Shown one piece after another: positions 20,238-64,000 of a DNA stretch of 64,000 nucleotides (within the stretch, counting starts at the first letter, position 1; each line of letters begins with the position of its first letter). Position numbers and translations under genes: made by a program. The notes beneath the pieces are model-generated. The model was not told where the DNA came from. It searched no databases and saw only the letters and a program-made list of their open reading frames with translations. The DNA is from Amphirosellinia nigrospora (Eukaryota; Ascomycota; Sordariomycetes; Xylariales; Xylariaceae), in NCBI GenBank assembly GCA_004123355.1, contig SCHM01000002.1, forward strand, positions 7,785,569 through 7,849,568, written 5' to 3'.

Positions 20238-20536
20238 TAGTTACGCTTTATATACTTAAAAAGGTAAAGCTTTAACATATATAATATATTATATATAAAA
20301 ATTTACAAATAAAATAAAAAAGAAAAAAAATCTAAGTTTATAATATAAACAACTACTTAAATACTCGCGTAAAATAACTATATTTATTATTAATATTTAT
20401 TTTTATTTACTATAATTATATTTATTACGAATAATAATTATATATTTATTATAAATAGTAGTTATTATAAGTAAAAATTATAAGTATTATAGCTAATAAT
20501 AAAGCATAGCTACTATAGTTTATAAATCTATAATTA
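20238..20536. repeat. Left LTR of copy B
   Basis: About 299 bp, matching copy A's LTRs and the partner at 63737-64000. It differs from copy A by a ~24 bp tandem duplication (20418-20441 and 20442-20465), which its partner shares. That shared duplication confirms that the two belong to one element although 43 kb apart. Confidence 0.85.
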
Positions 20537-21060
20537 TTCTTTTTTCGAAAAAAAAAATAATTTAACCGGGGTTAAAATTATAACTATTTTTTAGCGAAAA
20601 AAAAATCGCTTTAAGTTTTTATTAATATAAATTTTTATAAAGCTTTTATACTATTAAATTTTATATTAGTTTTTTTATATATTATTTAAAGTTTTTTTTA
20701 TTTAAAACATTTATTTATACGTTTTTTTTTATATTATTTTTTTTATGCTATAATTTATTATTATTTAAATATAACGTATTAAAATTATTATTTTATACTA
20801 TATTTAGCTATATTTATAATTTTATTAAAAATTTAACTAAATTAAAATTTTTATCGTAAAAATCTTTTAATATTTTTATATTATTTTTAAAGTTTTTTAT
20901 AAAATATTATATATTATTAAAATTTTAACTTTTTTAGCTTATTTAATATTATAACTTTTAATAATAAAGTCGAAAAGTTTATATTTTTTAATTATAAATT
21001 TTTTTTCGTTTTTAAGCTTTAATTTTTTTTTAAAAATTTTTATTTTTTAACTTAATTAAT

Positions 21061-21257
21061 AAAGCCCTTAAAAGGTCTATATTACTAGTAGCTTCCTTGC
21101 GCGGAGCGCAAGGAAAAGCCACCTAGTAATATTTATATTTAAATAAATAGCTAACATATTATTAGTTAAAGAATTTATTATTAAATCTACTATATAGATC
21201 TAATAATAAATTTTTTTTTTAATTAAGCTTTATTTTATAATCTATAATATTCTTTTT
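21061..21257 (+). repeat. Left LTR of D1, with strong hairpins
   Basis: Matches 28763-28956 directly, and 32856-33042 and 53911-54098 inversely. It is the least mutated of the four. It contains a perfect 10 bp hairpin (TTCCTTGCGC at 21093-21102, GGA loop, complement at 21106-21115) nested in a larger inverted repeat spanning 21081-21130. A second inverted repeat of about 19 bp arms lies at 21172-21215. Both are still visible in the other LTRs. Confidence 0.8.
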
Positions 21258-22349
21258 AAAATAATACTTTATTACGTAGTTTTATTAAATATTAAACTAT
21301 ATTAAAAACTATTTATTTTAAATTTTTAAAGTTAAAAATATTAATTTTTTAGTAGTAATTAGCGCGTAATTTATATATATCTATTAATTAAAGCAAATAT
21401 TGCGCCTTAGCGTTAATTTATTTTATATTTTTATTTTTATATTTTTTATAAAACTTTTAAATAAACTAATTATTTAGCCCTAAAAAAAGCTTAGTAAAAT
21501 ATTTTTATATTTTAAATATATTAATTTTATAGCGTAGCTAAAATTATTATAAAATTATAAACGTTATAAATTTTTATTAATTAATTGTTTTAAATATCCT
21601 AGTTTTATTATAAAATTTTAAACGTTTTAGTTTATTATTAAAGTTTATAAATATATTAGTTTTATTATTAAAATATAGTTATAAATTATATATTTTATTT
21701 TATTTTTATTTATATATAGTTTATTTTATTTTTAAGTTATTATTTATAACGTTATAAAAATAACAAATTATAAAACTAATATAATAATAGTTTTTTTATA
21801 TATTTAATTATTTATTAAACTAAACGTTAAATTTATTATTAAAAAACTTTTATTTAAAGTTTTTTTTTTTTAATTTTTAACGTAACAATTATTAAAACAA
21901 TATTATTATTATTAATATAAATTTCGTTAAAAATGCCTATAAATTATTTAATAATATAAATTAAAAAATTAAAATAAAACAAAAAAAAAAATTAGCGTAA
22001 AAATAACTAAAACTAATATTAATATTAATAAAGCTTAATTAGCGATAATAAATTAAAAATTTGCAAAGTTTCGTTTAAAAGATTAAACTAATAGCTAAAA
22101 TTTAACGCTAAAACTATAAATATATTTTTAAAATAATAAAAAATAATAATTTTAAATAAAATTAAATTAAACTAAATATAAAAAAGCTATAAAAAATATT
22201 AAGCAAATTAATAATAAACTTAATTTAATTATATAAATAAATTAAAATTTTAGCGCTTTTATAAAGTTTTAAAAAATCGATATTATATTTTTATTAATAT
22301 TTTACTTTTAATTATATCGAACTAGCAAGCTTTTATAATATAATAATTA

Positions 22350-22723
22350 ATTTTAATAATATAGCTATAAATAAAAAAAAAACAATAATAATACTTTTGC
22401 CTTTATTTCCGAATATAATAAGCGTATTAATAATGTTTTTGCCCCCGCTTTTTTTTTGTTGCCTTAAAGGTAATATAAAAAATATAAAAATATATTTTTT
22501 AATTAAAATAGGCAATAATAATAGCAATAGTAATAAAAACAGCAATAGCAAAATAAATAACTTTAATAATAATCTAGATTTATCGGGCAATAAAGCTAAT
22601 ATTAGCAGCTATAATTATAATAATAAACGTTATTATTATAAAACCCCGTTTTTAACTATATTTATAATAAAAAGTACTTATAAAATTAAATATAAAAATA
22701 TTAAAGTTTTAAACCCCGATTAA
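22350..22723 (+). other. Low-complexity, less-mutated tract inside D1, not accepted as a gene
   Basis: This tract keeps short C and G runs (TTGCCCCCGC near 22440, GGCAATAATAATAGC near 22511) and is rich in AAT and AGC triplets. Chance open frames exist on both strands but encode only Ile/Asn/Lys/Leu-biased, featureless peptides. The inverse counterpart in D2 (about 52540-52800) is also AAT/ATT-rich. It is best read as part of the fossil D interior. Confidence 0.55.
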
Positions 22724-25700
22724 AACAACTTAAAAAATAAAAAAATTATTATAAATAAAAAAATATTATTTATATAAATATATATATATTTTCCTGATAT
22801 ATTTAAGCTATATATAAGCTTAATAATATAGAATTATTAAATAATAATTAAACTTTAAAGCTATTTAACTATTTTTTTATAAGTTCTATTTTTTATAGTA
22901 AAATAATAAAATTAAGCTTATTAATTATTATATTTAATAAAAAGCAAGCTTAAGTTTAATATTTAAAAAGCTAGAAAAATAGTTTAAAATATATTTTAAA
23001 TACGCTATAAAAAAGTTTTTCGAAAATAACTTTTTTTTATTTAATATATATAAATAAAAATATATTTATTTAATTTATTTAATATAAGTTATAATATACT
23101 TATAAAAATAAAACTTTAGCTTAAAATAATTTTAATTAATAAATATTATAAAAATATTTATAATTAATAGGCTAAAATAATTATTAATTATATTTATTTA
23201 TTAAAAAAAAAAAATATATTAAATAAATATATAAAAAAATTAATAAAGCGCGCTATAAATTAAAATAAAAAACGGAATATAAGTTTTTAAACGTTAAACT
23301 TTTTTATAATTATTTAAAAATAATAATAAAACTTTCGGAATTTATATTTTAAATATAATAATTAAATATTTTAATTATTATCGATTAAAAAATAAATATT
23401 AATTTTATTATAAACGTTATTATTATTTTAATAATAAATATATAAACGATATAATAATAATTGCAATAAAAATTATAGCTATTATAAAAAAGCAATAAAA
23501 AAAGTGCTTATAAAAAAAAAATAATAATAAAAATAAAAAATATAATATAATTATAATAATAATTAAAACTATAGCTATAATTACGACCGTAGCTATAACT
23601 ATAGTTATAATTATAATAATAATCGTAAATATTATTATAATAAAAAACGTAATAATTATTATAGCGTATATTAAGCTAATAATATACGTTTAAATAAAAA
23701 AAATCTAAATATAATACTAATAAAAAATACTATAATAGTAATACTTTTTATTATATATTTAGTTTAGCTTTTATTTATTATAAATATTATAAAAAATATA
23801 AATTATTTAATATTTTTATTTTATATATATAAAATATAAACTATATATTTATTAAATATATAACGTATATTAATATTTTTTATTTATTACTTTTAAATAA
23901 TATATATATAGATATTATATTTAAATATTACTTTTATAAAATAAACTTTTTTAATATTTAAGCTAGTATAAATTAGCTAAAAAAATATAATTAAAAAATA
24001 AAATTTTTAAGTTAAAAATATTTATATTTAAAGCGCTAAATATAGATATATATAATAAAGCTTTATATTTAAACTATATGTATTTTTGTTTTTACGCGCG
24101 CGTTTTATTAACTAGTTAAAATATAAAAATATATATTAATTTAAATATAATAAAACTATAATTAACAATAAGTATTTTAATATATTAAAATATATAGTAA
24201 AAAAACATAAAAGCTAAATAATTATTATTAAAAATAAACGTATAAAAATAACACGTTAAACTAAATTTAAGTTTTTTATTTAAAAAATTAATAGTAATAA
24301 ATAGTTTAAAATTATAAAATATAAAAAAAAAATTAAGTTATAAATAAAAAATTATAACTAAATATACTAATTAATAATAATTTTTTTTATTTTTATAAAG
24401 CTATTATTAATTATTTTAAAAATATTATTATTTTTTATAACTTTAATAATTTTATTATTAATTTTAAGGTTTTAATTTATAGCTATAAATATATATAAAA
24501 AATTACTAATATATATATTATAACTATTATAGCTAATAAAAACGCATATTTATAAATTAAATATAAGCTATTATTTATTAACTATAATTTTTATTTTATA
24601 ATAATATATAAAAATAAATAAATATTATATAAATATAAAAACTTTTAAAATTATCTTAGTTATTAATATTACGAATATTTTAATTAAAATAAATAAAAAT
24701 ATTAAATTAAAATAAATTTATAAAAATTATAATAATAATATATATATTAGTTTATAAAAATTAGCTATAAAAACTTTAACTATTATAATAATTATTTTAA
24801 TAATATTATTAGCTAAAATAGTTAGTTTAAGATTTTTAGCTATTTTAAATTTATTTATTATTATAAATATTAAATTTAATATAACGTTAATTATTATAGT
24901 TATTATAACTAATATAATACTAATAAACTAGTATTTATAAACGAACTAATAAATTTTATAGTTATTTTTATAATAGCGCTTAATAAAACTAATAATTATA
25001 TTATTAGCTTTATATAAAAAATAATATATTTTTTTTAACTATTAATATTTTTAACGTTTAGCTTTTAAATATTTTTTTATTAATATAATATATAATTTTA
25101 TTATAAATATTAAGTTATACTATTATTAAAAGAACTATATATTAATATTAAAAAAGCTTTTTAAACTAAAGCTTTTAAAAATATATTTTATTTTAAATAT
25201 TAAAAAGCTATAAATTTCTTTAAAATATAACTAATAATAATATTTATATTTATATTAAAAAAGCTTTTAAAATAGCTAAATTTGCTAAAATTATTAAAGC
25301 TTATAATATTTAATAAATAAAATAAAGTTAATATTCTTAAAATAAAATAGCTTAAGTTTTTTTATCGATAATTAATAAAAAATAAACTAAATATAAAAAT
25401 TTATTTTTTTAGTTAAAAAAATATAAAATTTTTAATAAAACTTATAATAAACTTTATAAAATAGGTTATATAATTTAAATAAATAAAGCTATATTTTTAT
25501 ATATTTTATATTTATTATTTAAAAGAAATTTATAACGTAAATAAAAACTAAATAATTATTAATTTATAATAGTTTAATAAAATCGCTATTTTTAATAGTT
25601 ATTTTTTTTTTTATAAAATAAAATAATTAAAACTTTCGTAAAAAGCTTATATTATTTATATTAATATAACCGGTTTTTTTTATTAATTTTTATAGTATAA

Positions 25701-28403
25701 AATAATTTAAAATTATATTAATAAAATGTATAAATTTTTTCGGTTATATTTAAAAATATATAAATAAATTTTTTTATTTTTATTTTATTTTATTATTATT
25801 TTATTAATAATATTATTATTTTTTTAATATATTTAAAAAATATATATAATATTTAAATATTATTTTTAGTTTATTTTAATTAAAAAATATTGCTATATTA
25901 TTAAAGAAATTTTTTATTAGTTATTTTTTATTAAATTTTTTAGATTTTATATTAATATTTTAAAAATATTATTATTACTAAATATATATAAACGTTTAAA
26001 TAGTTTATATTTTTTAAAACTTTTAAGCTTTTAAATAATATTTCGGTATAAATAGATTTTTTTATAATTTTTTTTTTTATTATATATAATTAGCTAAATT
26101 TTATAAAAATATAAAATAGCTTTATTAGTTAAAAGTTATTAAAAAAAAAAATAATAAATAATAACCTAAGTTATTATAAATATATATATAAATTATATAT
26201 TATAACTTTATACTAGCTAAAATAGTTTTTTTAACATTATTTAAAACGTTATTTATTTTAAAACTATATTTATTATTATAACTTAAATTATATATATTTA
26301 TAAATTAATAAATATTTCGAAAAGTTTTAATATTATAATTTTTATATTAAACTAAGTTTTAAATAAAAACTAGGCGAACTTATATTTTTTATATAAATAT
26401 AGCTAGTTATATATTTAAATTAATATTTATTATAAACTAAAACTAAATATAGTTTTTTAAACAAAAAATAATATATTTATATAAGTTATAAAAAAGCTTT
26501 ATAATAATTTATTTAAATAAATATTATATAATAGTTTTAATAATTATTTAGCTATAAAAAATATTATTAATTAAACTTTATTAAATATTTTTACTATTAA
26601 TAAAATAAATAATTAGTTTATTAATTTTTGTTTATTTATTATAATATAGTTTTTAAGTTTTTTATTTATTAAAACGCTTTAATTATATTTTAAATATATT
26701 AAGTCGATTTATTATAATATAAATATTATCGACTTAAAAAATAAATTAAAACGATTATAAAAATTTATAATATTAAACTTTATATAAAACATAATAAAAT
26801 ATATTATAAAAGTAATAATAAATAATACGTTTAAACACGATTTTAAGCTAAAATAAAGTAGATTTTTATTATAAAAAATCCTAAATAAACTTTACTAAAA
26901 TTAATTTTGCGAACTATATAATAATAAAAACGTTATTGTTTTTTTAAAGCTAAGTATATTTTTTTTATTATAAACAGTTTAATTTATAATAAATATAAAA
27001 AAATTAAATAATTCTAATTTTATATATAATACGCGAATAAATATTATATATTATATATAATAAAAAATATTATTTTAAACTTAACTAAATAATAAAAGCT
27101 TTAAAACTATATTCGATTTATAAAAAGTTATAATATATTAAAAAATATTATAAATATTATTTAAAATATAATATTAATCGTAATAATAAATAAAAACTAA
27201 TAAATAATTTATATTTAATTAAACTTAAAAATACGCTACTAATATAAATAATTATAATTAATTTTATTTATTATTATTTTTAATTAAATTATAAATATTT
27301 TATAATAGTTAGAAAATTTAATATATATAATTATATAATAATAGTTTTTTACTATATATTTAAATAAACGTTTATAATTTTTAATAATATAAATATATAG
27401 CTAAAAACTAAGCAATAGTTTTAATTAAATAATTATTTTTAATAATTAAAATATTTTTAAAAAAATTATTTTTAATTATAATTATAAGTTTATTTTTAAT
27501 TTTTAAAAAAATATATAAAAATATTAAATATTAAATTATTAATAATTACTATATATTATTTATAAAAAAATAATCTATTTAAAAAAAAAACTAAACAATT
27601 AAAATTATAATATATTTTTATAATTATATATATTTTAAATTAAACTAGTTTAATATAATCTTTATTTTATAATAAAATTTTAATTTTATATTTTTATAAA
27701 TTATATAATTTATTTTTATAAATAGTTATTTAAATTTAAGCTTTTTAGCTTTTTTAATATATTATAAACTAAATAAATATATATAATTTCGAAAACGTAA
27801 AATCTTTATATAACTATTTATAATAAAATACTAAATTAGCTATAAATTTTATTATTATTATAGTAAAAAAATATTTTAATAATAAATATTAAACATTAAA
27901 ATTTAAACTAAATAATAAAGTTTTTTTCTGTTTATATAATAGTTATTATTTATTTAGCAAGCTTTTTAAAAAATATTTATAATAATATATTAAACTTTAA
28001 ATTATTAAACGTAAAATTAATAATTTAGCTTACGAACTAGATTTTTTTAAATATTATATATATATATTTATTTTTATTATATAATTATAATTATATAAAA
28101 TAACAAAAACCTTTTTAAACAAATAATATTATTATTAAAGCTTATTAAAACTAATTAATATTTTAACGATAATAATAAAAATAATATTTATAAAATTAAA
28201 ATTATATTTAAATATTATTTTAACCGGAAAAAAAATAATTTTAACTATTTAATTAAATAAAAAAATAAAGTTATAAATATAACCGCTAATATTTAACGTA
28301 TTATTTTTAATATTTATAAGAACTTATTAATAAATACTAAGCTAAACATAACTTTTGCTTTATATTACTAAAAAAAAAAAGTTTTTATAAAATTTTTATA
28401 TTA

Positions 28404-28580
28404 ACTTTACGTTTAAAATAACAGAAATAATAGCTAAACGTTTTATAGTAAACTATATAAAGTAATTTTTAATGTTTTAATTTTAGAATTTAATTTACGT
28501 TTAAAGTAATAAAAACAAAAACCAAGCGTTTTTATAGTAAGCTATATAAAGTAATTATTAATACTTTAATTCTAGAACTA
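28404..28580 (+). repeat. Tandem duplication of ~89 bp in D1
   Basis: Two consecutive units share a TTTACGTTTAAA start and a TATAGTAA(A/G)CTATATAAAGTAAT core at 28443 and 28532, giving an 89 bp period. The inverse region of D2 (about 33270-33400) shows the core once, so the duplication seems specific to D1. Confidence 0.65.
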
Positions 28581-28762
28581 ACTTTAGTATCAACTTTTAT
28601 TATTGTTCTTATTATTGCTAATATGCTTATAAATAAAGTAGTAAAAAAATAAAATAAAAAAATATTACTTAATACTATATAAAAAAACTATAATTATAAT
28701 ATAGTTTAGTTAAATCGATCTACTAAAATTAATAGAAACTTTTTATATTCCGGCATTTTAAT

Positions 28763-28956
28763 AAAGCTTTTAAAAGGTTGTATTATTAATAGCTTTTTGC
28801 ACAAAACGTAAAAAAAAGCTACTTAATAATACTTATATTTAAATAAACAGCTAGCATACTACTAGTTAAAAAATCTATTAATAGATTTATTATATAAATT
28901 TAATAATAAATTCTTTTTTTAATTAAACTTTACTTATAACTTATAATATTCTTTTT
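28763..28956 (+). repeat. Right LTR of D1
   Basis: Direct repeat of 21061-21257, beginning AAAGCTTTTAAAAGG and ending ATAATATTCTTTTT. It is more RIP-mutated: the GC-rich hairpin stem has decayed to A- and T-rich arms around 28783-28832, but the outer pairing is still recognisable. Confidence 0.8.
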
Positions 28957-29284
28957 ATTAATAATAAATTATTAAATATTTTTATAATTAGTTTATATAA
29001 TAACGATTTAATATTTTTAAGTTATAAAATATTTAGTAAAAATATTTTATTTTTATTTTATATTTTAAATTTTATTATATATAAAAAAATCTAGTTTATT
29101 TAATAAACGATTATTTTTTAAAACTATTTTTTTTTAAAATTAAATATAATTTTTTATATTAAAATTAAGTTATATTAATTTTTATTAGTTTAATTAGTTA
29201 TATGTTTTAAATATATTATAAGTTTTTTTTAGTTAATTTAATAAACTATGCTTTTTTTTATTTTTTTTATATATTTATTCGAAT

Positions 29285-29562
29285 TATTATAATTATAATA
29301 TTATTATATATAAAATTAACATATTAATATTAATTATATATTAATAATTATTAATTATAATATTAGCTATTTATATAATAAAGTTAAGCTAATATATTCG
29401 TTTAATTTAGTTATATAATATATTATAATAAAATTCTTTTCGTATAAAAAGTTTTTATATAAAAGCTTAGTTTTATATAAATAATTAAAAAAATAATCGA
29501 TATATATTAATATTTATTTTATTTATTATTATATATAATATATATTTTTTAGCTATTTAATA
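29285..29562 (+). repeat. Left LTR of C2
   Basis: About 278 bp, from TATTATAATTAT to AGCTATTTAATA. Matches the other four family C LTRs. It has lost the GC still kept in its partner at 57493-57779. Confidence 0.85.
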
Positions 29563-32500
29563 TTAATTAATATTTTTAGCTAAAAAATATAAATTAATAA
29601 AAATAAAAATAAAATTTAAACTTAGTTATATAAGCCGCGTTTTATATTATATTTTAGTTTTTTTAATATTATTAATAAAAAAAAATTAATTATTTTAATA
29701 TTTTAATATTATATTTTTATATAAAATTTAATTAATAACGTATATATTATTATTTTTTAATTATTATTATATAAATTACGTAAAAATTTATAATATAATT
29801 TAATAATTTTTTTATTTATAATATTTCGAATATAATAAAAAATAATAATTAATCGTATAATAATTAATATAAATAAACGTATAAAAACGCTATATTTTAA
29901 AAAAGTAGCTAAAATAATTTTTTATTTTTTTAGCTAATATTTTATATAATAATATAGCTAAAAAAATCGCTTAAAAAACTAATATACTTTTAAGTTTTAT
30001 ATAAAAACTATTAGTTTTATATATATAAAAATATTTTATAAAACTTTAAAATAACTATTATAAAATAAATTAACATATAATAATATATTTATATATAAAT
30101 ATAATTATATTTTATATAATTTAAAAAACTTTTAAAAAATATTAATAAAAATTTAATATTTAAATTTAAAAAAATTTATAACGCTTTTATATAAAAAACG
30201 TTTTAAATTAAAAACTTATAAATAGTTAAAAGAAAACTATATTATATAAATTATAAAAAATAAATATACTTTAATATATAAATTTTAAATTTTTATATAA
30301 TTATTTTAAATAATATTTATATTTTTATATTAAATTAATAATTTTAAAATTAATAAAGTTTTTTATATAATAAAATAATTTATAATTTTTTTTTTAAATA
30401 AAAAAACAAATAAAAAAAAAACAAAAAAATAAATAAAAAAATAGCTATAAAATAACCTATATAATAATTAAAAATTAGCTTTTTAATTTTAAATAATAAA
30501 ATATTATATAAAATAAAATATTAAAATAAAATTCTAAAAATTTTTTATAATTATTAAATATTATTTATTATTTTTTTAGTAATAATTTATTTTTTATATA
30601 AATAAAAAATATATTATATTTTTAATATATAAAATATTTAGTTTTTAAAAAAATTTTAAACTTTAAAACAATTTATTTATTATATAATATTAAATATAAA
30701 ATTTTTATTTAGAATTTAAATTTTTTATATATAATATTTAAAATAAAACTATTTATTTATATAATATTAGATTTTTTTAAAAACGTAATAAAAAAAAAGT
30801 TTATTTTAAAAAGCTATATAATTTTTTATAATAATATAATAATTTATTAATTATTATTATAAATTTAAAATTATAAAAATTAATTTTATATTATATTTTT
30901 ATAATATTAATTAATTATATAAAAATTATTATATTATTTATTAATTTTAATTATATATATAAAAAAAATATATAATATTAAATTATATTTTAATATAATT
31001 ATAAACTATAATTAATATTAAATTAATTAAACTAATATTATTTTTATATAAATATATAAATAAAAAAAAACTTATTTTTATATAAAATATTAAAAGTTAT
31101 AATTAATAAATTATTTAAAGCTTAAAAAATATTTAAAATAAAATATTTAAAAAAAAATTTATTTAAATATAATTATTATATATATATATAAATATTTTTA
31201 AAATTTAAATAATAATTTTATTTTTAAAAATTTATATACGAAAATTTTTTTTAAACTTTTATTTATATTTTTAAATTAAAAAAAACCTAATAATTTAATA
31301 TTTTATATAAAAATAAAAATTTTTATCATATAAATTAATAATATAATTAAATTAATTATTATTATATAATATAAAAATATTATATAATATTTTAAAAATT
31401 TTTAAAAATAATATATAACTAAAATTATATAAATATTTATTTTTAAAAACTTATATATAAATAAAAAATATTTTATTTATTAAAAAAAAAATATTAATTA
31501 ATTAATTATATTTTTTAAAAAAGTTTTACGCAAAAAATTAATATTTTAATATATATAAATAATATTCGAAATAAACTAACTTCCGAAAAATTTTTAATTT
31601 ATTTAACTAAATATAAAACTATTAAATATATATAATAAAAAAAAAAAATTTAAATTATAAATAAAAACATTATAATATATTATAAATAATATATTATATT
31701 TATATAAAAAAAAATATTTAATTAATAATTATAAATTAATTTTTAATTTATTTATATTTAATAATTAATATTATATAAAATATTAAAATATTATTTAAAA
31801 TATAAAAACTTTAAAATTTTTTACTATAAAAAACTATAAATAAAACTTATATATAAAAAAACTTAAAAACTAAAATTATTTAAACTTTAAATAACTAAAA
31901 TAAGCTTTAAAAAAAACTATAATAATTTCGGTTAATATATAAAAATTAATAATTAAATTAATTATATAATATTTTATATTTTAAATATTTTTATTTTATT
32001 TTATTTTTTTTTAAAAAATATAAATTATTTAAAAATATATTTTAATAATATAAAAAATATTATCGTATAAAAAAATAAAAATAATATTTTTATTATATAT
32101 AAATAAAATTATTTATTTTTTAATATTAGCTTATATAAAATAATTAATTATTTTATAAAAATTAAATTACGCTATTTATATAAACGATTTAATATTTTTA
32201 TATAAAAAAACTATATAAAATATTATTTCGCGCAAATATAAAATTAAATAATTTATTTTAAAAAAAATCTAAAAATTTTATTATTATTATTAAATATATA
32301 ATAAAATTCTATAATAATTTAAATTTATAATTAAAAATAATTATAAATTTAATTATAAATAATTATAAATATTATATAAATAATAATTAAAATATTATAT
32401 ATATTAATATTATTATATTATTTTAAGCTATAATTTTTTAAAATTAATATTTATATAAATATATAAAAAATTTATATAAATATTAAATTAATATTTATTA

Positions 32501-32855
32501 AAAACTTTTTAATAATATTATATATAACTTTAAAATAAATTTTTTATCGGATAATTTAAAAAAATATAAAAATAACTAGCGTATAATATTATAAAATATT
32601 TATCGAAATATATTAATAATAAATAAAATAAAACAAATATATAGCTATTTAAACGTACGTATAATATTTTTTGAAAAAAAATTAATATATATAAATAATA
32701 AATTAATTTTATAAAATAATAAAAATATTAAATAATATATTAAACTTAATAATTTTATACTAATTTTTTTTATTTTTAAAGCTTATTTTATATTAATAAA
32801 AAATTTTTTTATTTTTTTTATTATATAAAAAATAATAACTATTTAAAAAATATAA

Positions 32856-33042
32856 GAAAAATATTATAAGTTATAAATAAAGCTTAATTTAAAAAAAAAT
32901 CTATTAAATTTACGTAATAAATTAATAATAGATTTTTAACTAATAATATATTAGCTATTTATTTAAATATAAATATTATTAAGTAGTTTTTTTATATTCC
33001 GCGCAAAAAAGCTACTAGTAATATAAACTTTTTAAAAATTTA
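32856..33042 (-). repeat. D2 LTR, left
   Basis: Inverse match to the D1 LTRs. It keeps the hairpin outline around 32990-33025 (TATTCCGCGCAAAAAAGC) and the AATAATAGATTTTT arm of the second inverted repeat. Confidence 0.75.
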
Positions 33043-35808: not shown

Positions 35809-36085
35809 ATTATAATTATAGTATTATCTATATATAAAGTTAATATACGGTATTAATTGCGTATAATAGCTAATTATTAATTATAATATTAGCTGTTCGT
35901 ATAATAAAATTAAGCTAATATATCCGCCCGATCTAGTTATATAATATATTATAGTAAAATTTTTTGTATAAAAAATTTTATACGAAAGCCTAGCTTTTAT
36001 ACAAATAATTAAAAAAATAAATTAATATATATAATATTTATTTTATTTTTTATTATATAATATTATATTTTTTAGTTATTTAATA
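35809..36085 (+). repeat. Left LTR of C3
   Basis: About 277 bp, similar to the other family C LTRs. It keeps the AGCTAATATATCCGCCCGATC block at 35915-35935 and the GAAAGC/GCTTTT inverted repeat near 35990. Confidence 0.85.

Positions 36086-46463: not shown

Positions 46464-46496
<33 letters not shown>
46464..46496 (+). repeat. AAT microsatellite, about 11 units
   Basis: An uninterrupted run of ATA/TAA triplets lies in the right part of C3, followed by imperfect TATTAA repeats to 46555. The equivalent place in C2 (about 56940-57010) has only short interrupted triplets, so the run expanded after the copies separated. Confidence 0.85.
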
Positions 46497-46497
<1 letters not shown>

Positions 46498-50300: not shown

Positions 50301-53300
50301 TAATAATAAATAAATTTAAAATAACTAAAAATCTTAAACTAATTATTTTAGCTAATAATATATTAAAATAACTATTATAATAGCTAAAATTTTTATAGCT
50401 AATTTTTATAAACTAATATATACGTTATTATTATAATTTTTATAAATTTATTTTAGTTTAATTTTTATTTATTTTAATTAAAATATTTATAATATTAATA
50501 ATTAAAATAACTTTAAAAATCTTTACGTTTATTATAATATTTATTATATTTTTATATATTATATAAATAAAAATTATAATTAATAAATAATAGTTTATAT
50601 TTAATTTATAAATATATATTTTTATTAGCTATAATCGTTATAATATATATTAATAATTTTTATATATATTTATAACTATAAATTAAAATTTAAAATTAAT
50701 AATAAAATTATTAAAATTATAAAAAATAATAATATTTTTAAAATAATTAATAATAGCTTTAAAAAATAAAAAAGTTATTATTAATTAATATATTTAGTTA
50801 TAGTTTTTTATTTATAATTTAATTTTTTTTTTTATATTTTATAATTTTAAGCTATTTATTATTATTAACTTTTTAAAAAAAAATTTAAATTTAACTTAAT
50901 ATTATTTTTATACGCTTATTTTTAATAATAATTATTTAGTTTTTATATTTTTTATTATATATTTAACGTATTAAAATATTTATTATTAATTATAGTTTTA
51001 TTTATATTTAAATTAATATATATTTTATATTTTAACCGGTTAATAAAACGCGCGTATAAAAACAAAAATATATATAGTTTAAATATAAAGCTTTATTATA
51101 TATATTTACGTTTAATACTTTAAATATAAATATTTTTAATTTAAAAATTTTATTTAATTTATTTATATAAATAATAAATTATTATTAAAAATATTTTATT
51201 TTTTAATTATATTTTTTTTAATTAATTTATTAGTTTAAATATTAAAAAAGTTTATTTTATAAAAATAATATTTAAATATAATATTTATATATATATTATT
51301 TAAAATAATAAATAAAAAATATTAATATATATATATTTTAATAAAATATATAGCTTATATTTTTATATATATAAAATAAAAATATTAAATAATTTATATT
51401 TTTTATAATATTATAATAAATAAAAACTAAACTAAATATAATAAAAAATATATTATTATAATATTCTTTATTAATATTATATTTAGATTTTTTTTATTTA
51501 AATATATATTATTAATTTAATATATACTATAATAATTATTATATTTTTATTATAATAACACTTATAATCGCTATTATAATTATAGCTATAATTATAGCTA
51601 TAATTATAGTTATAGCTATAGTTTTAATTATTTTATAATTATTATTACGTTTTTTATTTTTATTATTATATTTTTTATTTTATAAGCATTTTTTTTATTA
51701 TTTTTTTATAATAGCTATAATTTTTATTATAATTATTATTACGTTATTTATTATATTTATTATTAAAATAATAATAACGTTTATAATAAAATTAATATTT
51801 ATTTTTAAATAATAATAATTAAAATATTTATAATTATTATATTTAAAATATAAATTTTAATAGTTTTTATTATTATTTTTTAAATAATTATAAAAAATTT
51901 AACGTTTAAAAACTTATATTTTATTAATTTTTTTATATATTTATTTAATATATTTTTTTTTTAGTAAATAAATATAATTAATAATTATTTTAGTTTATTA
52001 ATCGCAGATATTTTTTATAATATTTATTAATTAAAATTTTTTTGCGCTAAAGTTTTATTTTTAAATATATTATAGCTTATATTAAATAAATTAAATAAAT
52101 ATATTTATTTTATATTATATCGAATAAAAAAAAATTATTTCGAAAAACTTTTTTATAATATATTTAAAGTATATTTTAAAACGTTTTTTTAGCTTTTTAA
52201 ATATTAAGTTTTAATTTACTTTTTACTAAATATAATAATTAATAAGCTTAATTTTATTATTTTATTATAAAAAAACAAAATTTAAAAAAATAATTAAATA
52301 ATTTTAAAATTTAATTATTATTTAATAATTTTATATTATTAAACTTATATATAGTTTAAATACGTTAAAAAATATATATATTTATATAAATAATATTTTT
52401 TTTATTTATAATAACTTTTTTATTTTTAAGTTATTTTAATTAAAATTTAAAACTTTAATATTTTTATATTTAATTTTATAAATATTTTTTACTATAAATA
52501 TAATTAAAAATAAAGTTTTATAATAATAACGTTTATTATTATAGCTATAGCTACTAAGGCTAGCTTTATTATTTAATAAATTTAAATCGTTATTAAAGTT
52601 GCCCGTTTTACTGTTGTTATTTTATTACTATTACTATTATTATTATTATTATTTGTTTTAATTAAAAAATATATTCCTATGTTTTTTATATTACTTTTAA
52701 GGCAATAAAAAAAAATAAAAGCAAAGGTATTATTGCTACGTTTATTATATTTAAAAATAAAAGCAAAAATATTATTATTTTTTTTATTTATAGCTATATT
52801 ATTAAAGTTAATTACTATATTATAAAAAGCTTATTAGTTTAATATAATTAAAAATAAAATATTAATAAAAATATAATATTAATTTTTTTAAAATTTTATA
52901 AAAACGCTAAAATTTTAATTTATTTATATAATTAAATTAAATTTATCGTTAATTTATTCGATATTTTTTATAGCTTTTTATATTTAATTTAATTCGATTT
53001 TATTTAAAATTATTATTTTGCTATTATTTTAAAAATATATTATAGTTTTTACGTTAAATTTTAATTATTAGTTTAATTTTTTAAATAAAAATTTTATACG
53101 TTTTTAATTTATTATTATTAATTAAACTTTATTAATATTAGTTTTAGCTTTAGTTACTTTTACGTTAATTTTATTTTTTTTATTTTATTTCGATTTTTTA
53201 AATTATATTATTAAATAATTTATAAACGTTTTTAATAAAGTTTATATTAATAATAATGCTTATTTTAATAATTATTACGCTAAAAATTAAAAAAAAAATA

Positions 53301-53910
53301 ATTTTAAATAAAAGTTTTTTAATAGTAAATTTAACGTTTAATTTAATAAATAATTAAATATATAAAAAAACTATCGTTATATTAATTTTACGATTTATTA
53401 TTTTTATATAATATTATAAATAATAATTTAAAAATAAAATAAATTATATATAAAAAAAATAAAATAAAATATATATAATTTATAACTATATTTTAATAAT
53501 AAAACTAATATATTTATAAACTTTAATAATAAACTAAAACGTTTAAAAATTTTATAATAAAACTAAAATATTTAAAACAATTAATTAATAAAAATTTATA
53601 ACGTTTATAATTTTATAATAATTTTAATTACGTTATAAAAACTAATATATTTAAAATATAAAAATATTTTACTAAGCTTTTTTTAAAACTAAATAACTAG
53701 CTTATTTAAAAGCTTTATAAAAAATATAAAATAAAAATATAAAATAAATTAACGCTAAAGCGTAATATTGTTTTAATTAATAAATATATATAAATTATGC
53801 GCTAATTATTACTATAAAAATTTATATTTTTAACTTTAAAAAATTTAAAAATAAATAGTTTTTAGTATAGTTTAATATTTATAATAAAACTACGTAATAA
53901 AACATTATTT

Positions 53911-54098
53911 TAAAAAAATATTATAAGTTATAAAATAAAGCTTAATTTAAAAAAAAAATCTATTATTAAATTTACGCAATAGATTTAATAATAGATTTTT
54001 TAACTAATAATATACCAGCTATTTATCTAGATATAAATATTACTAGGTGGCTTTTTTTACGTTCCGCGTAAAGAAACCATTAATAATATAAACCCTTT
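53911..54098 (-). repeat. D2 LTR, right
   Basis: Inverse match to the D1 LTRs. The inverted repeat at about 53957-54000 (AATCTATTATTAAATTTA and its complement) is well preserved, as is the hairpin remnant around 54035-54085 containing TTCCGCGTAAAG. Confidence 0.75.
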
Positions 54099-57086
54099 AA
54101 AAACTTTATTAAAATAATAAAAATATTATATAAAAACTATATAAAAATTAAAATTAGTTATATAATTAACAAATAAAATAAACTATTTTTATATAACGTA
54201 TTTATATATTTTTTTTAAAATAAAATTTTAATATAAAAAAAAAAAAAAAAAAAACTATATAAAATTAAATAATTAAAAAATTAAATATAATTATAGTTTC
54301 GATTAATAAACTAATATATTTTTAATATATATAAATTAAACTATATTATTATAAAAAATATTTAAATAAATAATTTAAACTAAAATAATATATAATTTAT
54401 ATAGTTAATAATTATTAAAAAAAACATAATTAGCTAAAAAAAAAATTTTAGCTTTATTATTATATAACGCTTAAATATATTTATTATATAATATTTAAAA
54501 TTATAAACTTTTTAATAAAAAAAAAATAAGTTTTTAAATTAATAATTAAATTATATATAAATAAAATTATTATAACTTTTAATAAACTATTTAAAAATTA
54601 AATATAATAAAAATTAATAAACTTATTATATAAAACGTTTTTAAATTTATTATATATAATTTAAATATTTATAAAAAAAAATATATTTTTAAGTTTTATT
54701 TTAAATAAAAAATTAAAAAAAAACTATAAAACTATATAAAAATCTAAATTTATTATATAAAATATAATAATATTAAAAAAATATTATTTTAATTTAATCG
54801 CTAATAATTTAATAAATAAATTAATAGTTAATTTTAATATTTAGTTTTATTTTTATATAAAACTTTAAAATTTTATAAATTTAAAAATATTATTTAAGCT
54901 TATATTTAATTAAAAAATAAACTATTATATAATATTTATATTTGTTTATTTTTAAAATTAAAAAAAAATATTTTTAAAAACTATTTTATATATTATATAA
55001 CTTTTATATAGCTTAGCTAAATTTAAACTATATTAGTTTAAAATATATTATTAATATTATTAAAAAAGATTTAAAATATAAATATTTATATATAATTTAT
55101 ATTTATTAGTTATATATAATAGTTTAAATATTTTTAAAATAATTAAAATATAAATAAATAATATATTAAGCTTTATTATATTAAATTTTTTATTGCGCGA
55201 AAAAAAAAAACTTAAATAAATAAAACTTCGTATAAAACTAAAAAAAACTTTATTTTTTAAATATTTATTTAAATTTAATAATAAAAAAATCTTTTTATAT
55301 AAATAAAATATTATAATAACTTAAAAAAACTAAACTAAAAATTTAATTAAAATTAACTTTTATATAAAAAATTCGCTTAAATTTATATTTTTTAACAAAC
55401 TAAAAAATATATATTAATAATATATATTAATTTAAAACTATATATAATTACTATTATAACTTAAATTATTAAGCTATAATTATATAATATTAAAATATTA
55501 AATAAACGGATTAAATAATAAAAAAATAACTTATTAAAAAGCTTATATTTATTTTTTTAATTTTTATTATATAAAGCTTTTTATTTTTATAAATAAATTA
55601 TTTATAAATAATATAAATATAACTTTATAATTTAAATTTATTATTATATTTATAATTAAAGTTTATAAAAAAATATAATAAATTTAAATTTTAAAATTAA
55701 AAATAATATTATATATTAAAATTTAAACAAATATAAAAAAGTTAATAAAATATTTTAGCTAGCAAATTATATAATATAATTAATAGTTTTAATAATATTA
55801 TTATTTTTTATATAATATTTTAAAAAATTATTAAAATATTTAATTTATTTTAATATTTATTATTTTATATTTAAATTTTAAATTATTATACGATTATTTA
55901 ATTAAACTAAAAATAATTTAAAAAAAAATTAATAATAAATATTATATTTTTTTAAAAATTATATAAAAAAAAATCTTTAAAATATAATAAATTAATAATA
56001 AAAATAACTTAGTTAATATATTATTAAATATATTTTAAACTAAATATTAAAACTTTAGTTTTTATAAATAAACTATTTATATAAATCGAAATATTTATTA
56101 AAAAACTATAAAAAATATATTATATAATAAATAATAACTAAGCATATATAAAAATAATATATTATATATAAATATTTAAAAAAAATATTATATATAAATA
56201 GTAAAAAGTTAGAAAATTATAACAAAAATAATAATTAAAATTTATACCCCGAAAATAATATATATAATTAATTTTTTTATTTTTTTTTTTAAAAAACTAA
56301 ACTATATATAATAAAAATAACAAATATTATATAATTGCTATATATAAACGCCGCAAGCGCTGCTTTAAAAACTTAACACTATATAATATTAATTAAATAA
56401 AATATTTTAATAATTAATATAACTATTGCGCAAACTATTTAAATATAAATAATAACTTAATTATAATTTTAAACGAAAATTATATAAAAATATTCTTTTT
56501 AATATATAAACTTTGTTTATATATCGGTAAAAATAATAATTAATAATATTTAAAAAATAATATCGTATAAAAAAGCAGAAATAATTATATTTTTTTATTA
56601 TTATATAATAAAATAAATTAATAAAAATATATATTAAAAATTATTCGTATAAAATAAACAAATAAAAATATATATACGTTTATATATAACGTTAATATAA
56701 AAGCTTTATAAGTTTAACTTTTAATTAAAAAACTATAAATTTTAATAAATTATTATTTTTTAAACGTATAAAGTTTTAAAACTATATAATACTATTAAAA
56801 ATAAAAAATATAAAATATAAATAAAAAACTTTAATAAAGTTAATAAATTTAGCAATAATTATTATTAATATTAATAGCGATTTTATTTTAATTATTTATT
56901 AATATAATATTTAAAAAACTTAAAAGCTTTATATATAATCGCAATAATATTACTATTAATATTATTAATTTACTAATACTATTATTAATATTATTATTAA
57001 TATTATATTTATTATATAATAATATTAAACTTAATATTATATAAATTTATAAAATTAATTAAATATATATATAATATATATATATA

Positions 57087-57089
<3 letters not shown>

Positions 57090-57122
<33 letters not shown>

Positions 57123-57163
57123 TAAATATATACGCGTAAAAAAAAAAAAAAAAAAAAAAAAAA
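57090..57163 (+). repeat. TA dinucleotide run and 26 A tract in C2
   Basis: About 14 TA units (57090-57118) are followed by TATAAATATATACGCGT and an uninterrupted A run at 57138-57163. C3 has the same order with a shorter TA run and 25 A (46620-46692). The A run therefore belongs to the ancestral element and lies about 330 bp before the right LTR. Confidence 0.8.
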
Positions 57164-57492
57164 TAATATAAAAGCAACCTAACTTATATATAAAAGCAAT
57201 AAATATAAAAGCAATATATTATTTAATTTTTTAAAATATTTAAATAAATTAAAAAAAAAATTATATAATAATTATATATAAGTTAGCTTTTTATTTATAT
57301 TTATTAACTTTTTTTTTATATATAGTTATATAAATATTAAATATTTTAAAAAATAATAATTTAATATATTATCGAGCGCTTTTTTATTTATATATTTGCT
57401 ATATAATATATTTAATATTTTTTTACGTTTAGATTTTATATTAAAAAAATAATCGTATAAAAATACGTTATAATTAAAAAAAAAAAAGCTAA

Positions 57493-57779
57493 TATTATAA
57501 TTATAATATTATTTACGTATAAAATTAATATATCGGTATTAATTATATATAATAATTAATTATTAACTATAATATTAATTGTTTATATAATAAAATCGGG
57601 CTAATATATCCGCTTAATTTAGTTATATAATATATTATAGCAAAATTTTTTCGTATAAAAAAATTCTCCGTATAAAAACTTAGCTTTCGTATAAATAGTT
57701 AAAAAAAATAAATCGATATATACTAATATTTATTTTATTTATTATTATATATAATATTATACTTTTTAGCCACCTAACA
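57493..57779 (+). repeat. Right LTR of C2
   Basis: About 287 bp, starting TATTATAATTAT and ending AGCCACCTAACA. This end is the best preserved of the family and shows that the LTR closes in TAACA, complementing a TGTTA start inferred before RIP. Confidence 0.85.
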
Positions 57780-60700
57780 TAAATCGTTTTTTTTTTTTTA
57801 AAGAACTTTTATAGCTTTTTATTTACGGTTTAATTTTTTAATTAAAATTAAATATATTAAAAAACCTATTTTAATTTTATAAAATAATAATTTTATTAAA
57901 GCGGAAAAAATTAATATTAAACGTAATTTATAATAAATATACGTTTAAACTAATTATTTTAATAATAATTTATATATAATTATAACTTTTAATTAATATA
58001 TTTATTTATAATTTTTATTTATTTTATATTATAATATTTTATAATAATTAATATATATTTATATTTATTAGTTTATATAGCTTATTTATAAAAGTAAAAA
58101 TAAACTAAAGTTTATAGTTTAATATTATAGTTATAAATATTTTAAAAACTTAAAAAAGTTTTTATAATATATTTTAATAATATTTTTATAGTTATTTTTA
58201 TAGTATAAAATATAATTTATATTTATTTGCTTAAATAGTTTATTATAATTAATATATTATTATATTATATTTATTTTTAAATATTTATTTAAAATCGATA
58301 ATAAAATAATATTATATACGTTTAAATATTAAAAAAAATATAAATTTATTAAAAATTTTATTTTTAAATACTTTAATAAATCTATATTTATATAGTTTAT
58401 TATATAATAATTATAATTTTTATTTACTTTAAGCTATTAATAATATTTAATAATAAATTATATGTTTTATTTTTATTAAAATATATAGTAAATATTTTAT
58501 AATATATTTTTTAATGAAACGTATTTTTAAATATAAAAAATTAAAAATAATTAAATATCTATAAAATATAATTAATTTATTTTTAGTTTTTATAAATTTT
58601 TTAGTTTATTATTTTTTATTATTAATAATAAATTTTTATATTTACGTTTTTATAGTTTTTTTTAAAAATCCGCTCGATTAATTATAATTTTATAAAAACG
58701 TTAATTTATTATATATTTTAATAAAACTTATTTAATATAATTTTATTTATATAAAAATTAGTTATATTATATTATTAATTAGTTAAAATATCATAAAATA
58801 ACGTTATATTTTTTTTTTAGCTTTTTATATTGTTAGGTTTTTTTATTTTTATAATAAAACATTAGCAATATATTATTTTTTTTAAAATAATATAATATTA
58901 AAAATTATATTTAAAAAAAATTAACCTATTTAGCTTATTTTAAGTTAAAATATTATTTTTCGCTAAAAAACTTTAATATTTAATTATTAATAAATACTAA
59001 AAAAAGCTTTATAATTATTAATTAATTTAAATTTTTTTTTAAAATATAATATAACTATTAATAATTTTTATTATAAATATTATAATTTAATTTAATATTT
59101 TAAAATATTAGGTTTTATTATATATTATAATAATATATTAAACTAACGCTATTAAAAAAATCGTTTTAATTTTTATTAATAAATTATAATCGAAATATTT
59201 TAGCAAAAAAAACATATTAAAGCTTTTTTAAATTAATAAAATAATTTTTTATATTTTTTAATTTATATAAAAAATATATTTTTCGTATTAATCGGTTTAA
59301 AAACGTAATAATATAATTTTAAATATTAATAAAGTTTAATAAAAATTATAAAATCTTAAAAAAATTATATATTTTTAATTAAATAAAAGTTTTTATTTTA
59401 ATAGTATTAATTTAATAAAGTTTATTTAAATTTTTTTAATATTATAATATAATTTAAAAATTTAGTTTTTTAATATAAAATTCGGATTTTTTTAAATTAA
59501 TTTATAGTTTAGTTTAAATTAATCGTTTTAATATATAATATATATAAATAATATATTTTTTTATTATTTTTAAATAAATAATAATATTATTAGCGTAAAT
59601 ATTATAAAAATTATTTAAAAATTAAATAATATATTATTAATATTATTAAAACGTTAAAAATCCGTAATAAAACTAAATAATAATATTAATAATTAATATA
59701 TATTATATTTTATATAAAACGTTATATAATTTTTATTTTTAAATAATATATAAATATAATTAAATATTTATTATATTAAATTAAATAAAAACTTTTATTT
59801 ATTAATATAAACAAAGTTTTTTTAATAAAAAAAATAAATATTAATTTTTTTTATAATTTATTTAGTTATATATAATATATAAAAAAAAACTTATTTATTT
59901 TTTTTATAAATAAAATAAATATATTATATAAAATATTATTAAGTTAATAAAATTTTATATAAGTTTTTAATTAAAAATTTTTATATAGTTTTTAATTTAT
60001 TATATATATTTTATATAAAAACTATAGTTTAAATTAATTTTAAATTTATTTTAAAAATTTATTTATATTTATTTATAAATTTAATAATATATTAAAATTA
60101 ATTTAGTTAAAAACGTATATTAAGTTTTAATATTTTTTAAAATTATTTTTTACGTTTTTTATTTTAACTTTTATTTTTTTTTCTTAAAAAGTCGTTTTTA
60201 TTTTTTTTTTAATTTTTAATTATTTTATTAATTTATTAATATTAATAATATAAACGTTTTTATTTAGTTTTTTTATTATTATATTAAAATAATTATATTT
60301 AAATTAATATTTTTAGTTATTAGTTTTTTTTTATATTAATTAATATTGTTTTGTTTTATATAATAAAAAAGTTTTTTATTAAATTTTAAATAAAATTAAA
60401 ATTATATTTTTAATAAAAAATATAGCTTATATTTTTTAAAAATAAATTTTAGCAAAAGCTAATTAAATATTATTTATTTTATTTTATCGAAGTTTTTTTA
60501 TATTAAATTATATACTTTAAAATAAATATTTTTAGTTTTTTATTTTTTAAATATTATTTCGTTTTTTTTTATTATTAATATTATATTTTTTTAATTTTAA
60601 AATTATAGTTTTATTAATTAACGTTAAATTAATAAATTAAATATTATAACTATATATTTATTTATTTATTATTAAATAATATTTATATTATAATTAAAAA

Positions 60701-61590
60701 ATAATTAAAATAAATATTAAATAGTTTTATTAATAATTTAATAAAATATTATAATATTTAAACTATATTATTTAAATATTATAAATTAAATTAATAATAA
60801 TTATAAATTTATTTTTAAAAGTTTTTTTATATATTTTTAATAATAATAAAAAAGTTTAATTAATATTTTTTTTATTTTATTATTATATTTTATAACTTTT
60901 TTTAATAAAAAAGTTTATATAATAATAAAATTAAATAGTTTAATAATTTTTTTTAAATTATTAGTTTATATTTATATATATATTTATTTTATATTTCTAA
61001 AAAATTATTTATAGTTAAAAAAAGTTTATTATTATATAAAATATAAATATATAATAAAAGTTTTTTATTTAAATATTTTTATTAAATTTATTTTATAACT
61101 AATAATATTTTTAAAATATTTTTTTTAAAAAAAGTTATTTTTTTAAAGTTTTTTTTTTTTTTTATATAATAAGTTTATTTTTTTATATATTAATTAGCTT
61201 AATATTTAATATATTATATATAGCTAAATAATAATAATAAACTTTTTTATTTATTAAAGTTTAATTTTTTAAAAATATTTTTTAAAATATATTTTTATTA
61301 ATAATAATTAAAATATTACTATTAAAAATTAATTATTATATTTTATTAACGTTAAGCTTAAATAATTAAGCAAAATTATATTATTATATATTTATTTTAA
61401 AATAAAATAAAAAATTATTTAAAAAAAATAAAAAAAAAAAAAATTAAAAATTATAATAAATTTATATTTTTTTTAAAGTTTTATTTTATTATAATTAATT
61501 ATTATTAAATAATAAACTATTTAAAAATAATATTTCGTATAAATATTAAAATTAATATTTTTTTTAAAATATTTAATATAACATACTATA

Positions 61591-61940
61591 CAAGCATCCT
61601 GGCCACATAAATATCCTGGCTACTTAAGCTTGGCATTTTACTAAAATTATTAATAACTTTACAGAACTAAGCTTAATCGGGAAATAATTTATAGGGTTAA
61701 TATTTAACTATATTTAATATATAAATATAATTTTTTTAATTTTTTACGCTAGCTTAATAAGGTTATATACCCCGGTTTTTAAAATAAGCTAAAATAAAGC
61801 TAAAATAAAATCCTAGTTAATACTAGCGTATAATTTTTAAAATTTAAAAAAAATAAAATTAGATTTAATATGTTTTTTTATACTATATATTTTTTTCGAA
61901 TTTTTTAAGCTAGGTTTAGTATTTCTTTTTATTTTTAAAA
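61591..61940 (+). repeat. Left arm of the palindromic element
   Basis: Reads CAAGCATCCTGG at the outer end, then TTAAGCTTGGCATTTTACT, CTAAGCTTAATCGGGAAATA and TATACCCCGGTTTTTAAA, each matched in inverse by the right arm with only scattered differences and small indels. Confidence 0.85.
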
Positions 61941-62025
61941 TATAAAATATATATTTTTTTTTTATTTTTATTATTTTTTATTTTTTTTATTTTGTTTATT
62001 TTTTTTATTGATTTTTTTATACTTT

Positions 62026-62367
62026 AAAAAATAAAAAGAAATGGTAATCTAGCTTAAAAAATTCGAAAAAAACATATATATATAAAAAACGTACTAAATC
62101 CAATTTTATTTTTTTTAAATTTTAAAAAAATTATACGCTATACAACTAGGATTTTAGTTTAGCTTTATTTTTAGCTTACTTTAAAAACCGGGTATATAAC
62201 CTTATTAAGCTAGCGTAAAAATTAAAAAAACTATATTTATATTTAAATATAGTTATATATTAACCTATAAATTATTTCCCGATTAAGCTTAGTTCCGTAA
62301 AGTTATTATAATTCTAGTAAAATGCCAAGCTTAAGTAGCCAGGATATTTGTGTGGCCAGGATGCTTG
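62026..62367 (-). repeat. Right arm of the palindromic element
   Basis: Inverse of the left arm, ending CCAGGATGCTTG. Differences from the left arm are mostly C/T or G/A, as RIP would give, plus a few indels. The arms are far closer to each other than the RIP-aged LTR pairs around them. Confidence 0.85.
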
Positions 62368-63736
62368 ATAGTACGTATATTAAAATATTTAAAAAAAAAT
62401 ATAATTTAAATTTTTTTTTATTTAGTTTTATAAATTTAGTTTTATTAGCTAAATAAATAAAAATAGTTTAAAACTTTAAAAATTTAGCTAATATATATTA
62501 ATTAAAACTAAAAAATTAAAAATCGGTTTTAGTTTTTTTATTATAATTAATTAATATAAATTTTTTTCGAATATTTTAAAACAATTTTAAATTAATAAAT
62601 ATATTAAATAATTAAAAAAAAAAAAAAAAAAATTATTAGCTATATAGTTTTCGATATAAGTTTTAATATTAGCTATTTTAGTTAATTATTATAAAACTAA
62701 TTAATATTAAATTTAAAATAATTTATATAATTTAAATTTATATTTTAAATTTTAAGTTTATTTTAATTATTTATTATAAAAAATAAATATTAATATTTTA
62801 ACTATATATTAGTTATTTTTTTATTATTTAATAAAATAAAAATTATTTATAATAATTTAATAAATTAATTATTTATTAGTTTAAATATTTAAATTATTAT
62901 AAATATAATTATATTATTTAATTATTTTTTATAGTTTATTTAATAAATCGATAATAATTTATTAATTAGTTTATTATTAGCTAAAATTATTTTTAATTAT
63001 AAATTAAAAATATTAATAATATATATAATATAATAATATTTCGTTATAAAAAATAATAATTTTATTTTATTTTTTATTTAATTAAATAAAACTTATTTAT
63101 TTATTTAATTTTTAACGAATATATATAAATTAATAATAAATAATAATAAACTATTATTAAAAAAATATATATTTTTATTTTTAAAAAATAATAATAAAGT
63201 TTATATATATTATTTATACCGGTTTAATTTATATTTTTATTAAAATTAAACTAGATTATTTTATTATAATATACATTAATTTAAAATAAAAACTAAACTT
63301 AACGCTTTTATATATAGTTTTATATAATTATTAACTAAATATTAAACTATCCGATTAAAATTAATAATATTTATATCGAATTTTATTTTTAAATATATAG
63401 TTATAATAATATTATAAAACTATTATATTAAATTAATTAAAATAATTAGCTTTTATAGCTTATTATTATAGTTTTTATATAGTTTAAAAAGCTAAAATAA
63501 ATATATTTTTTTATTATTTATTAAAGTTTTATTATAAAAAGTTTATTGTTTTAAATATTCGAAATAAATAAATCCGAAATATTAATAAAAGCTTTAATAT
63601 ATATAGCTATACGTGTTATTATTTTAATTTTTCTTTAAAAAATATTTTAATATTTTTAAATTAAATTAGTTGTTTAGTTTAATTAAAAAATATATAAAAT
63701 AACTTTATATTTATAATATTATAAATAATTTATAAA

Positions 63737-64000
63737 TAGTTATATTTTATATATTTAAAAAGCAAAGCTTTAGTATATATAATATTTATTATAAAATTTA
63801 TAAATAAAATAAAAAAAAAAAAGTTTAAGTTTATAATATAAACAACTACTTAAATATTCGCGTAAAGTAGCTATATTTATTACTAATGCTTGCCTTTATT
63901 TATTATAACTATATTACTATAAATAACAATTATATATTTACTATAAATAATAGTATTATAAATAAAAATTACAAGTGCTATAGCTATAATAAAGCATAGC
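63737..64000. repeat. Right LTR of copy B, cut by window edge
   Basis: Matches 20238 onward for 264 bp and stops inside the AAAGCATAGC block. It carries the same ~24 bp tandem duplication (63911-63933 and 63934-63957), which copy A's LTRs lack. About 30 bp are missing beyond the edge. Confidence 0.85.

Follow-up and report, generated by a model that had tools for sequence, protein, structure and literature searches.

Can the history of a block of nested elements be read from the block itself? This question is raised by the window analyzed here, a 64,000-base stretch (G000:C4:7785569-7849568) of a 48.1-Mb genome in 11 contigs. A preliminary description proposed that five levels of insertion lie within one another in the window, that each interrupted copy has an uninterrupted relative nearby (B against A, C2 against C3, and D2 against D1), and that the junctions give the order of arrival. 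In our analysis, boundaries were taken only from a stringent self-comparison of the window (+1/-2 scoring). Looser BLAST scoring was dropped, since unrelated AT-rich DNA then reaches ~65% identity and alignment ends over-run by up to 700 bases (e.g., one end of C3 at 35123 versus 35809). Final element ends were set by eye and lie ≤7 bases from those used in the length and junction tests.

Element B is split by C2, C2 by D2, D2 by C3, and C3 by E (Table 1). As proposed, B also contains D1 and a palindrome as separate insertions, and its three breaks leave it in four pieces. The order B, C2, D2, C3, E is read from the junctions and agrees with that first proposed. C elements entered the B nest both before and after D2; thus, the active periods of families C and D overlapped, as their alternation had led the preliminary description to say. 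Its five levels stand, while its inventory lacked a 1.8-kb DNA transposon (F) within D2 and a 1.2-kb LTR unit (E2) within E1, and C1 proved to have a control of its own (G2). With E2 as a sixth nesting level, nine insertions were identified in all (D1, C2, the palindrome, D2, C3, F, E, C1, and E2).

Table 1. Elements of the nest and their uninterrupted relatives, in window positions
Feature	Position	Strand	Pieces, ends, and basis
B, outermost element	20237..64000 (ends 64023)		Pieces 20237-21056, 28958-29284, 57780-61580, 62389-64000
B LTRs	5' ~20237-20533; 3' ~63736 to 64023 (23 bases beyond the window)		LTR pair
A, uninterrupted relative of B	6843..13402		Empty-site control; stringent self-comparison
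D1, LTR element within B	21057..28957		TTAAT at 21052-21056 and 28958-28962
C2, LTR element within B	29285..57779	+	Pieces 29285-32852, 54112-57779; CGAAT/TAAAT (29280-29284, 57780-57784); strand inferred from the A-rich tract preceding the 3' LTR
D2, within C2	32853..54111		Pieces 32853-35808, 47307-47879, 49713-54111; interrupted by C3 (35808/47307) and by F (47879/49713); AAATA at 32848-32852 and 54112-54116
C3, within D2	35809..47306	+	Pieces 35809-38492, 42776-47306; duplication TTTA
E1, Gypsy-like fragment within C3	38493..41540	-	LTR 38493-38704; H2C2 integrase; C-terminal RT part; 5' half missing
E2, short LTR unit interrupting the E1 RT	41541..42775	-	LTRs 41541-41773, 42554-42775
F, Fot/pogo-like DNA transposon in D2 at TA	47880..49712		~62-base inverted ends
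Palindrome within B	61581..62388		~400-base arms, 90.8% alike
C1, uninterrupted relative of C2/C3	1..6084 (starts 1142 bases left of the window)	-	Self-comparison
G1, repeat interrupted by C1 (right flank)	6087..6595		Left flank outside the window, -2177 to -1145
G2, uninterrupted relative of G1	15447..17016		Empty-site control for C1 at 15962/15963

The pieces of each interrupted element are collinear with their relatives. Four consecutive stretches of A (7018-7641, 7631-7968, 7967-11782, and 11796-13300) match B at 20441-21063, 28958-29288, 57789-61580, and 62389-63900, respectively. C1 matches C3 at 38493-35809 and 46168-42778 and C2 at 32868-29285 and 56632-54111, while D1 (21056-28958) matches D2 at 54112-49712, 47879-47306, and 35820-32852. 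With inserts removed, the lengths agree within each family (7227, 7222, and 7215 bases for C1, C2, and C3; 7896 and 7930 for D1 and D2; 6560 and 6596 for A and B). Unrelated stretches of this 92% A+T DNA align at ~65% identity, in contrast to ~82-95% for the claimed pairs, which places the latter beyond chance.

Each break is bridged by a relative. A reads without interruption across the three breaks in B, at 7631/7641 (D1), 7967/7968 (C2), and 11782/11796 (palindrome). The break in C2 that holds D2 (32852/54112) is bridged by both C1 and C3, both breaks in D2 (C3 and F) by D1, and the break in C3 that holds E (38492/42776) by C1 and C2. The C1 insertion site in repeat G is likewise bridged by the intact G2. 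An empty site was therefore present at all eight insertions tested (8/8), with the relatives lying within the same window, the left flank of G1 being just outside it; the ninth insertion, E2 in E1, is without an uninterrupted relative. For these eight insertions, ten junction/reference pairs were scored by joining 150 bases from each flank, omitting the insert, and aligning the product to the relative. Excised flanks scored 424-512 with 96.8-100% purine/pyrimidine (RY) agreement, while the unexcised stretches scored 263-346. Random placements (90-97 per test, from 100 drawn with those near E dropped) averaged 149-174, with maxima of 186-608. The random maximum fell below the excised score in 9/10 tests; the exception, E against C1 (maximum 608), probably reflects a placement on a C-family copy.

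At the innermost level, E is not one clean insertion: its right end is the second LTR of E2, lacking the last ~10 bases, and half of E1 (the 5' side) is gone, leaving E clean at one end and damaged at the other. On the minus strand, E1 encodes an RT followed by an H2C2 integrase, with a single LTR. The integrase scored 26.7 bits (cutoff, 25.5) and the C-terminal RT part 29.0 bits (cutoff, 29.6), or 29.7 with its neighbors included. RT followed by integrase is the Gypsy order, and we assign E1 to Ty3/Gypsy. Relatives of its LTR at four other places have a lower G+C content (24-35%, including short flanks). E2, an LTR-internal-LTR unit, sits inside the RT domain of E1; over 218 aligned sites its LTRs differ by six indels and are free of substitutions, and nine further matches were found in the genome (461-1211 bases, two of them overlapping). 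A reading of E as a fragment devoid of LTR ends was discarded, as its left end is the terminus of a 212-base LTR (TG at 38493).

The damage to E leaves room for a tentative alternative, one that we hold to be possible but less probable than transposition: that break repair captured E as a piece of some other locus. The shortened right end and the loss of half of E1 fit such an origin, but the left end falls exactly on the LTR terminus, and C3 lost a few bases at most at the site. The missing half of E1 may instead have been removed by a later deletion between the end of the E2 LTR and E1's own, now lost, right LTR, which would have shared CTGTGTCA.

The preliminary description expected every junction to show a short target duplication together with a gap in the relative. 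The gap was found wherever it was sought; the duplications, read by eye, were found in part. Those of D1 (TTAAT/TTAAT), D2 (AAATA/AAATA), F (TA), and C2 (CGAAT/TAAAT, equal once C-to-T and G-to-A changes are allowed) are clear, and that of C3 is short (TTTA/TTTA). No clear target duplication was seen at the junctions of C1, the palindrome, or E. Because DNA of 92% A+T is almost a two-letter sequence, five-base matches are supportive but weak. These junctions also bear on the idea that the interrupted copies are assembly chimeras, formed by collapse or misjoining of near-identical repeats. Families C and D, with at least about 40 genome copies each, offer material for such errors, but the junctions fall at element termini, the relatives continue across them, and several carry target duplications. 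Moreover, the copies differ by 4.5-11% transitions (one short G stretch, at 1.2%, excepted), which makes collapse unlikely; we consider chimerism very improbable as an account of the nest and retain insertion.

LTR pairs are present in A, B, C1 to C3, D1, D2, and E2. For elements stripped of most G and C, relatives were sought among 42 domain-bearing loci in RY code, where C/T and G/A differences disappear. A and B proved to match an unmutated element located at 4.99 Mb of contig C4 (L061/L023) that carries RVT_1 and rve domains; RY identity is 95.7% over 3.5 kb for A and ~95-97.5% over the largest pieces of B. Through this relative, A and B are assigned to Ty3/Gypsy (LTRs, and RT followed by integrase). 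No Pfam domain was detected in C or D (three frames on one strand each, with stops read as X); with an LTR pair and a target duplication (not clear for C1), they are LTR elements by structure only. D-type sequences occupy at least 39 genome places (40 of 2037 candidates scored) and C-type sequences at least 40 (40 of 2210 candidates scored), the query's own place included in each case. Another element, present in five copies outside the window, has multiplied almost without substitutions. F has inverted ends and a TA target, and in RY code it matches two loci on contig C9 (L091 and L092), both of which carry the DDE_1 transposase; it is thus classed as a DNA transposon, with DDE_1 seen in the relatives, of the family that we take to be Fot/pogo. 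The ends of the palindrome share 38 bases with the terminal repeats of F (94.7% in RY code), a likeness that marks it as a MITE-like relative.

Base composition is depleted throughout most of the window. In 2-kb windows, G+C is 4-12% except at 38-44 kb, and with E left out it is 7.8% over 59,717 bases. B (7.0%), C2 (6.2%), D2 (7.4%), C3 (6.6%), and C1 (6.7%) are lowest; A and D1 (10.2% each), F (10.1%), and the palindrome (19.4%) lie above them, so depletion is unequal among elements. E1 (48.6%) and E2 (57.9%) are not RIP mutated. We note that the four outer levels are mutated to a near-equal floor (6.2-7.4% G+C), in all CpN contexts measured, and that the fifth and sixth levels are untouched. 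In 500-base samples of the surrounding contig, AT-rich DNA was found at 7.61-7.64 and 7.67 Mb, with 0.20-0.26 G+C at 7.66 and 7.68 Mb and 45-50% at 7.69-7.73 Mb. AT-rich sequence resumes at 7.74 Mb and continues until ~2 kb past the right edge of the window, beyond which G+C is 39-61%.

Comparison with the unmutated relatives gives the spectrum of this depletion. Relative to L061, A has lost 97.6% of cytosines to thymine at CpA (412/422, both strands counted), 86% at CpT (333/386), 82% at CpG (385/472), and 76% at CpC (345/453), while A/T-to-G/C changes occur at 9/1610 sites and transversions at 17 of 3345. B has the same pattern (CpA loss, 97.5-97.7%), and that of F is somewhat weaker (CpA loss, 93.4%; 17 transversions in 1060 sites). 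A spectrum of C-to-T and G-to-A changes that favors CpA and includes few transversions relative to an unmutated copy is, as judged from these alignments, the signature of RIP in A, B, and F. For C and D, composition points to RIP as the probable mutator. Candidate C5 DNA methylases give five matches at three loci in the genome. A low G+C content native to these elements is almost certainly not the explanation: C and D copies are seen AT rich and no unmutated C or D was present among the 42 domain-bearing loci, but the relatives of A/B and F, at ~45-53% G+C, differ almost only by C-to-T and G-to-A changes, strongest at CpA, which already strongly contradicts this view for A/B and F.

The degree of mutation does not date the insertions. 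At 6786 aligned sites, C1, C2, and C3 retain 424, 404, and 433 G+C, nearly equal values although C2 must predate C3; RIP has thus reached saturation there and is no guide to age. Transversions between LTR pairs number 3 in A, 0 in B, 1 each in C1, C2, D1, and D2, 2 in C3, and 0 in E2 (196-285 sites each), for a total of 9 among 1970 sites in the eight elements. Such counts (0-3 per pair) are too low to test the order, and LTR-pair dating was abandoned for that purpose, but they do suggest insertions that are young on the scale of the substitution clock. A RIP-aware projection on C1, which treats C2 and C3 alike and C1 differently, gave 5, 48, and 31 private transversions for C1, C2, and C3. 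The excess in C2 over C3 (one-sided P = 0.036, the projection having been chosen after a first result was seen) agrees weakly with the nest order, in which C2 is older. That first result, a three-way MAFFT alignment, gave 88, 148, and 168, against the nest order; these counts were judged to be inflated by misplaced gaps and were replaced by the projection.

Taken together, we are highly confident in a single joint reading: the window holds a nested cluster of LTR retrotransposons and DNA transposons, built by successive transposition and then RIP, with E last, in a gene-poor, AT-rich block of a filamentous-ascomycete-like genome. By ordinary transposition, B would have arrived first, followed by C2 into B, D2 into C2, C3 into D2, E1 into C3, and E2 into E1, with D1 and the palindromic MITE entering B, and F entering D2, as separate insertions. 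RIP would then have converted most G:C pairs in the repeated elements to A:T, and E may have escaped through recent arrival, a scarcity of close copies, or both. A layered record of genome defense switching off, read from the equally depleted outer levels, the untouched inner ones, and the five-copy element, is a reading that we consider unlikely; in it, a compartment largely free of RIP (contig C9) may supply new elements.

The preliminary description called such a nest unusual, which is not supported, as nests of this kind are common in RIP-affected fungi such as Zymoseptoria and Epichloe. In Zymoseptoria tritici (Mycosphaerella graminicola), 78 nested clusters of 7.5-63 kb are described, with target duplications verified in 35/49 clusters with an LTR base (PMC4522978). 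The present nest resembles these in its LTR base elements with further insertions, 4- to 6-base target duplications (here at some of the junctions), and lowered G+C; in contrast, the published table of 35 clusters (PMC4522978) reaches up to four levels, where we find five (six with E2) and eight insertions with an uninterrupted relative inside the window. In Epichloe festucae, nesting is pervasive, most copies of most families are interrupted, and RIP-mutated nested repeats form AT-rich blocks between gene-rich blocks, much as here; insertion order is tested here, and the portion of that report consulted notes no such test (PMC6218096). In Fusarium poae, elements move out of a RIP-free, transposable element-rich supernumerary genome into core chromosomes mutated by RIP, and the likeness to our RIP-mutated repeats beside unmutated copies is one of pattern only (PMC4994206). 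Long G+C-depleted stretches also characterize the large RIP-affected regions of Ascomycota, which average 14.9-33.0% G+C in the eight species of Table 2 of that report that have them; our 7.8% over 59.7 kb is lower, although this sets one region against genome means and single regions may be lower (PMC7882544). The nest is thus a clean and very clear new instance of a known structure produced by an ordinary process, and it is deeper than the published examples compared here.

Finally, because its junctions give the order of insertion independently of sequence divergence, the nest is a calibration set. Once RIP is saturated, the degree of mutation tells nothing about age, as the equality of C2 and C3 illustrates, and transversions or RY coding are needed instead. 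RY coding found relatives of elements stripped of nearly all G and C.

Outside the unmutated insert E, the window (1-64000) has a G+C content of 7.8%, and its longest A/T-only run is 386 bases. Cytosine loss is high across all CpN contexts and is not confined to CpA.

Elsewhere in the genome, an element with RVT_1 and rve domains has spread without mutation by repeat-induced point mutation (RIP). Of its five copies (L063-L067), two are found to the left of the window, at a distance of 130-138 kb. One copy, L066, shows 0 mismatches against the four others over ∼3455-3459 aligned bases, with small indels only; in an overlapping 2.7-kb part, each pair differs by 0-4 mismatches.

The palindrome counts as a MITE-like relative of the Fot/pogo-like transposon F: the two share terminal inverted repeats with each other and with L092, a DDE_1-bearing relative of F on contig C9. 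Short tandem arrays (∼79 and ∼84 bases) lie inside or adjoin repeat G, which is also matched by the flanks of L023, the unmutated relative of LTR elements A and B, and of L091, another relative of F. A further fragment matching the A/B-family LTR was found left of the window (L009).

Coordinates of the features (window numbering unless a contig is named)
Feature	Position	Remark
F	47880-49712	DNA transposon
Palindrome	61581-62388	
Tandem arrays at G	16170-16402; 17013-17289	
L009	-8151 to -7940	reverse orientation
L063-L067	C1:5.50, C1:12.64, C4:2.33, C4:7.648, C4:7.656 Mb	window lies on C4

Contig C9 spans 1.33 Mb, ∼2.8% of the genome. Domain searches of the genome, which favor unmutated copies, placed on it 15/32 RVT_1, 4/16 RVT_2, 3/4 DDE_1, and 2/8 rve matches (loci L016, L024, L030, L068, L070-L076, L079-L081, L083, L084, L087, L091-L093, and L097). 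G+C is 41-57% at 20 C9 loci; as a caveat, one stretch (L097) is at 32%. C9 looks like a compartment mostly without RIP and is possibly supernumerary.
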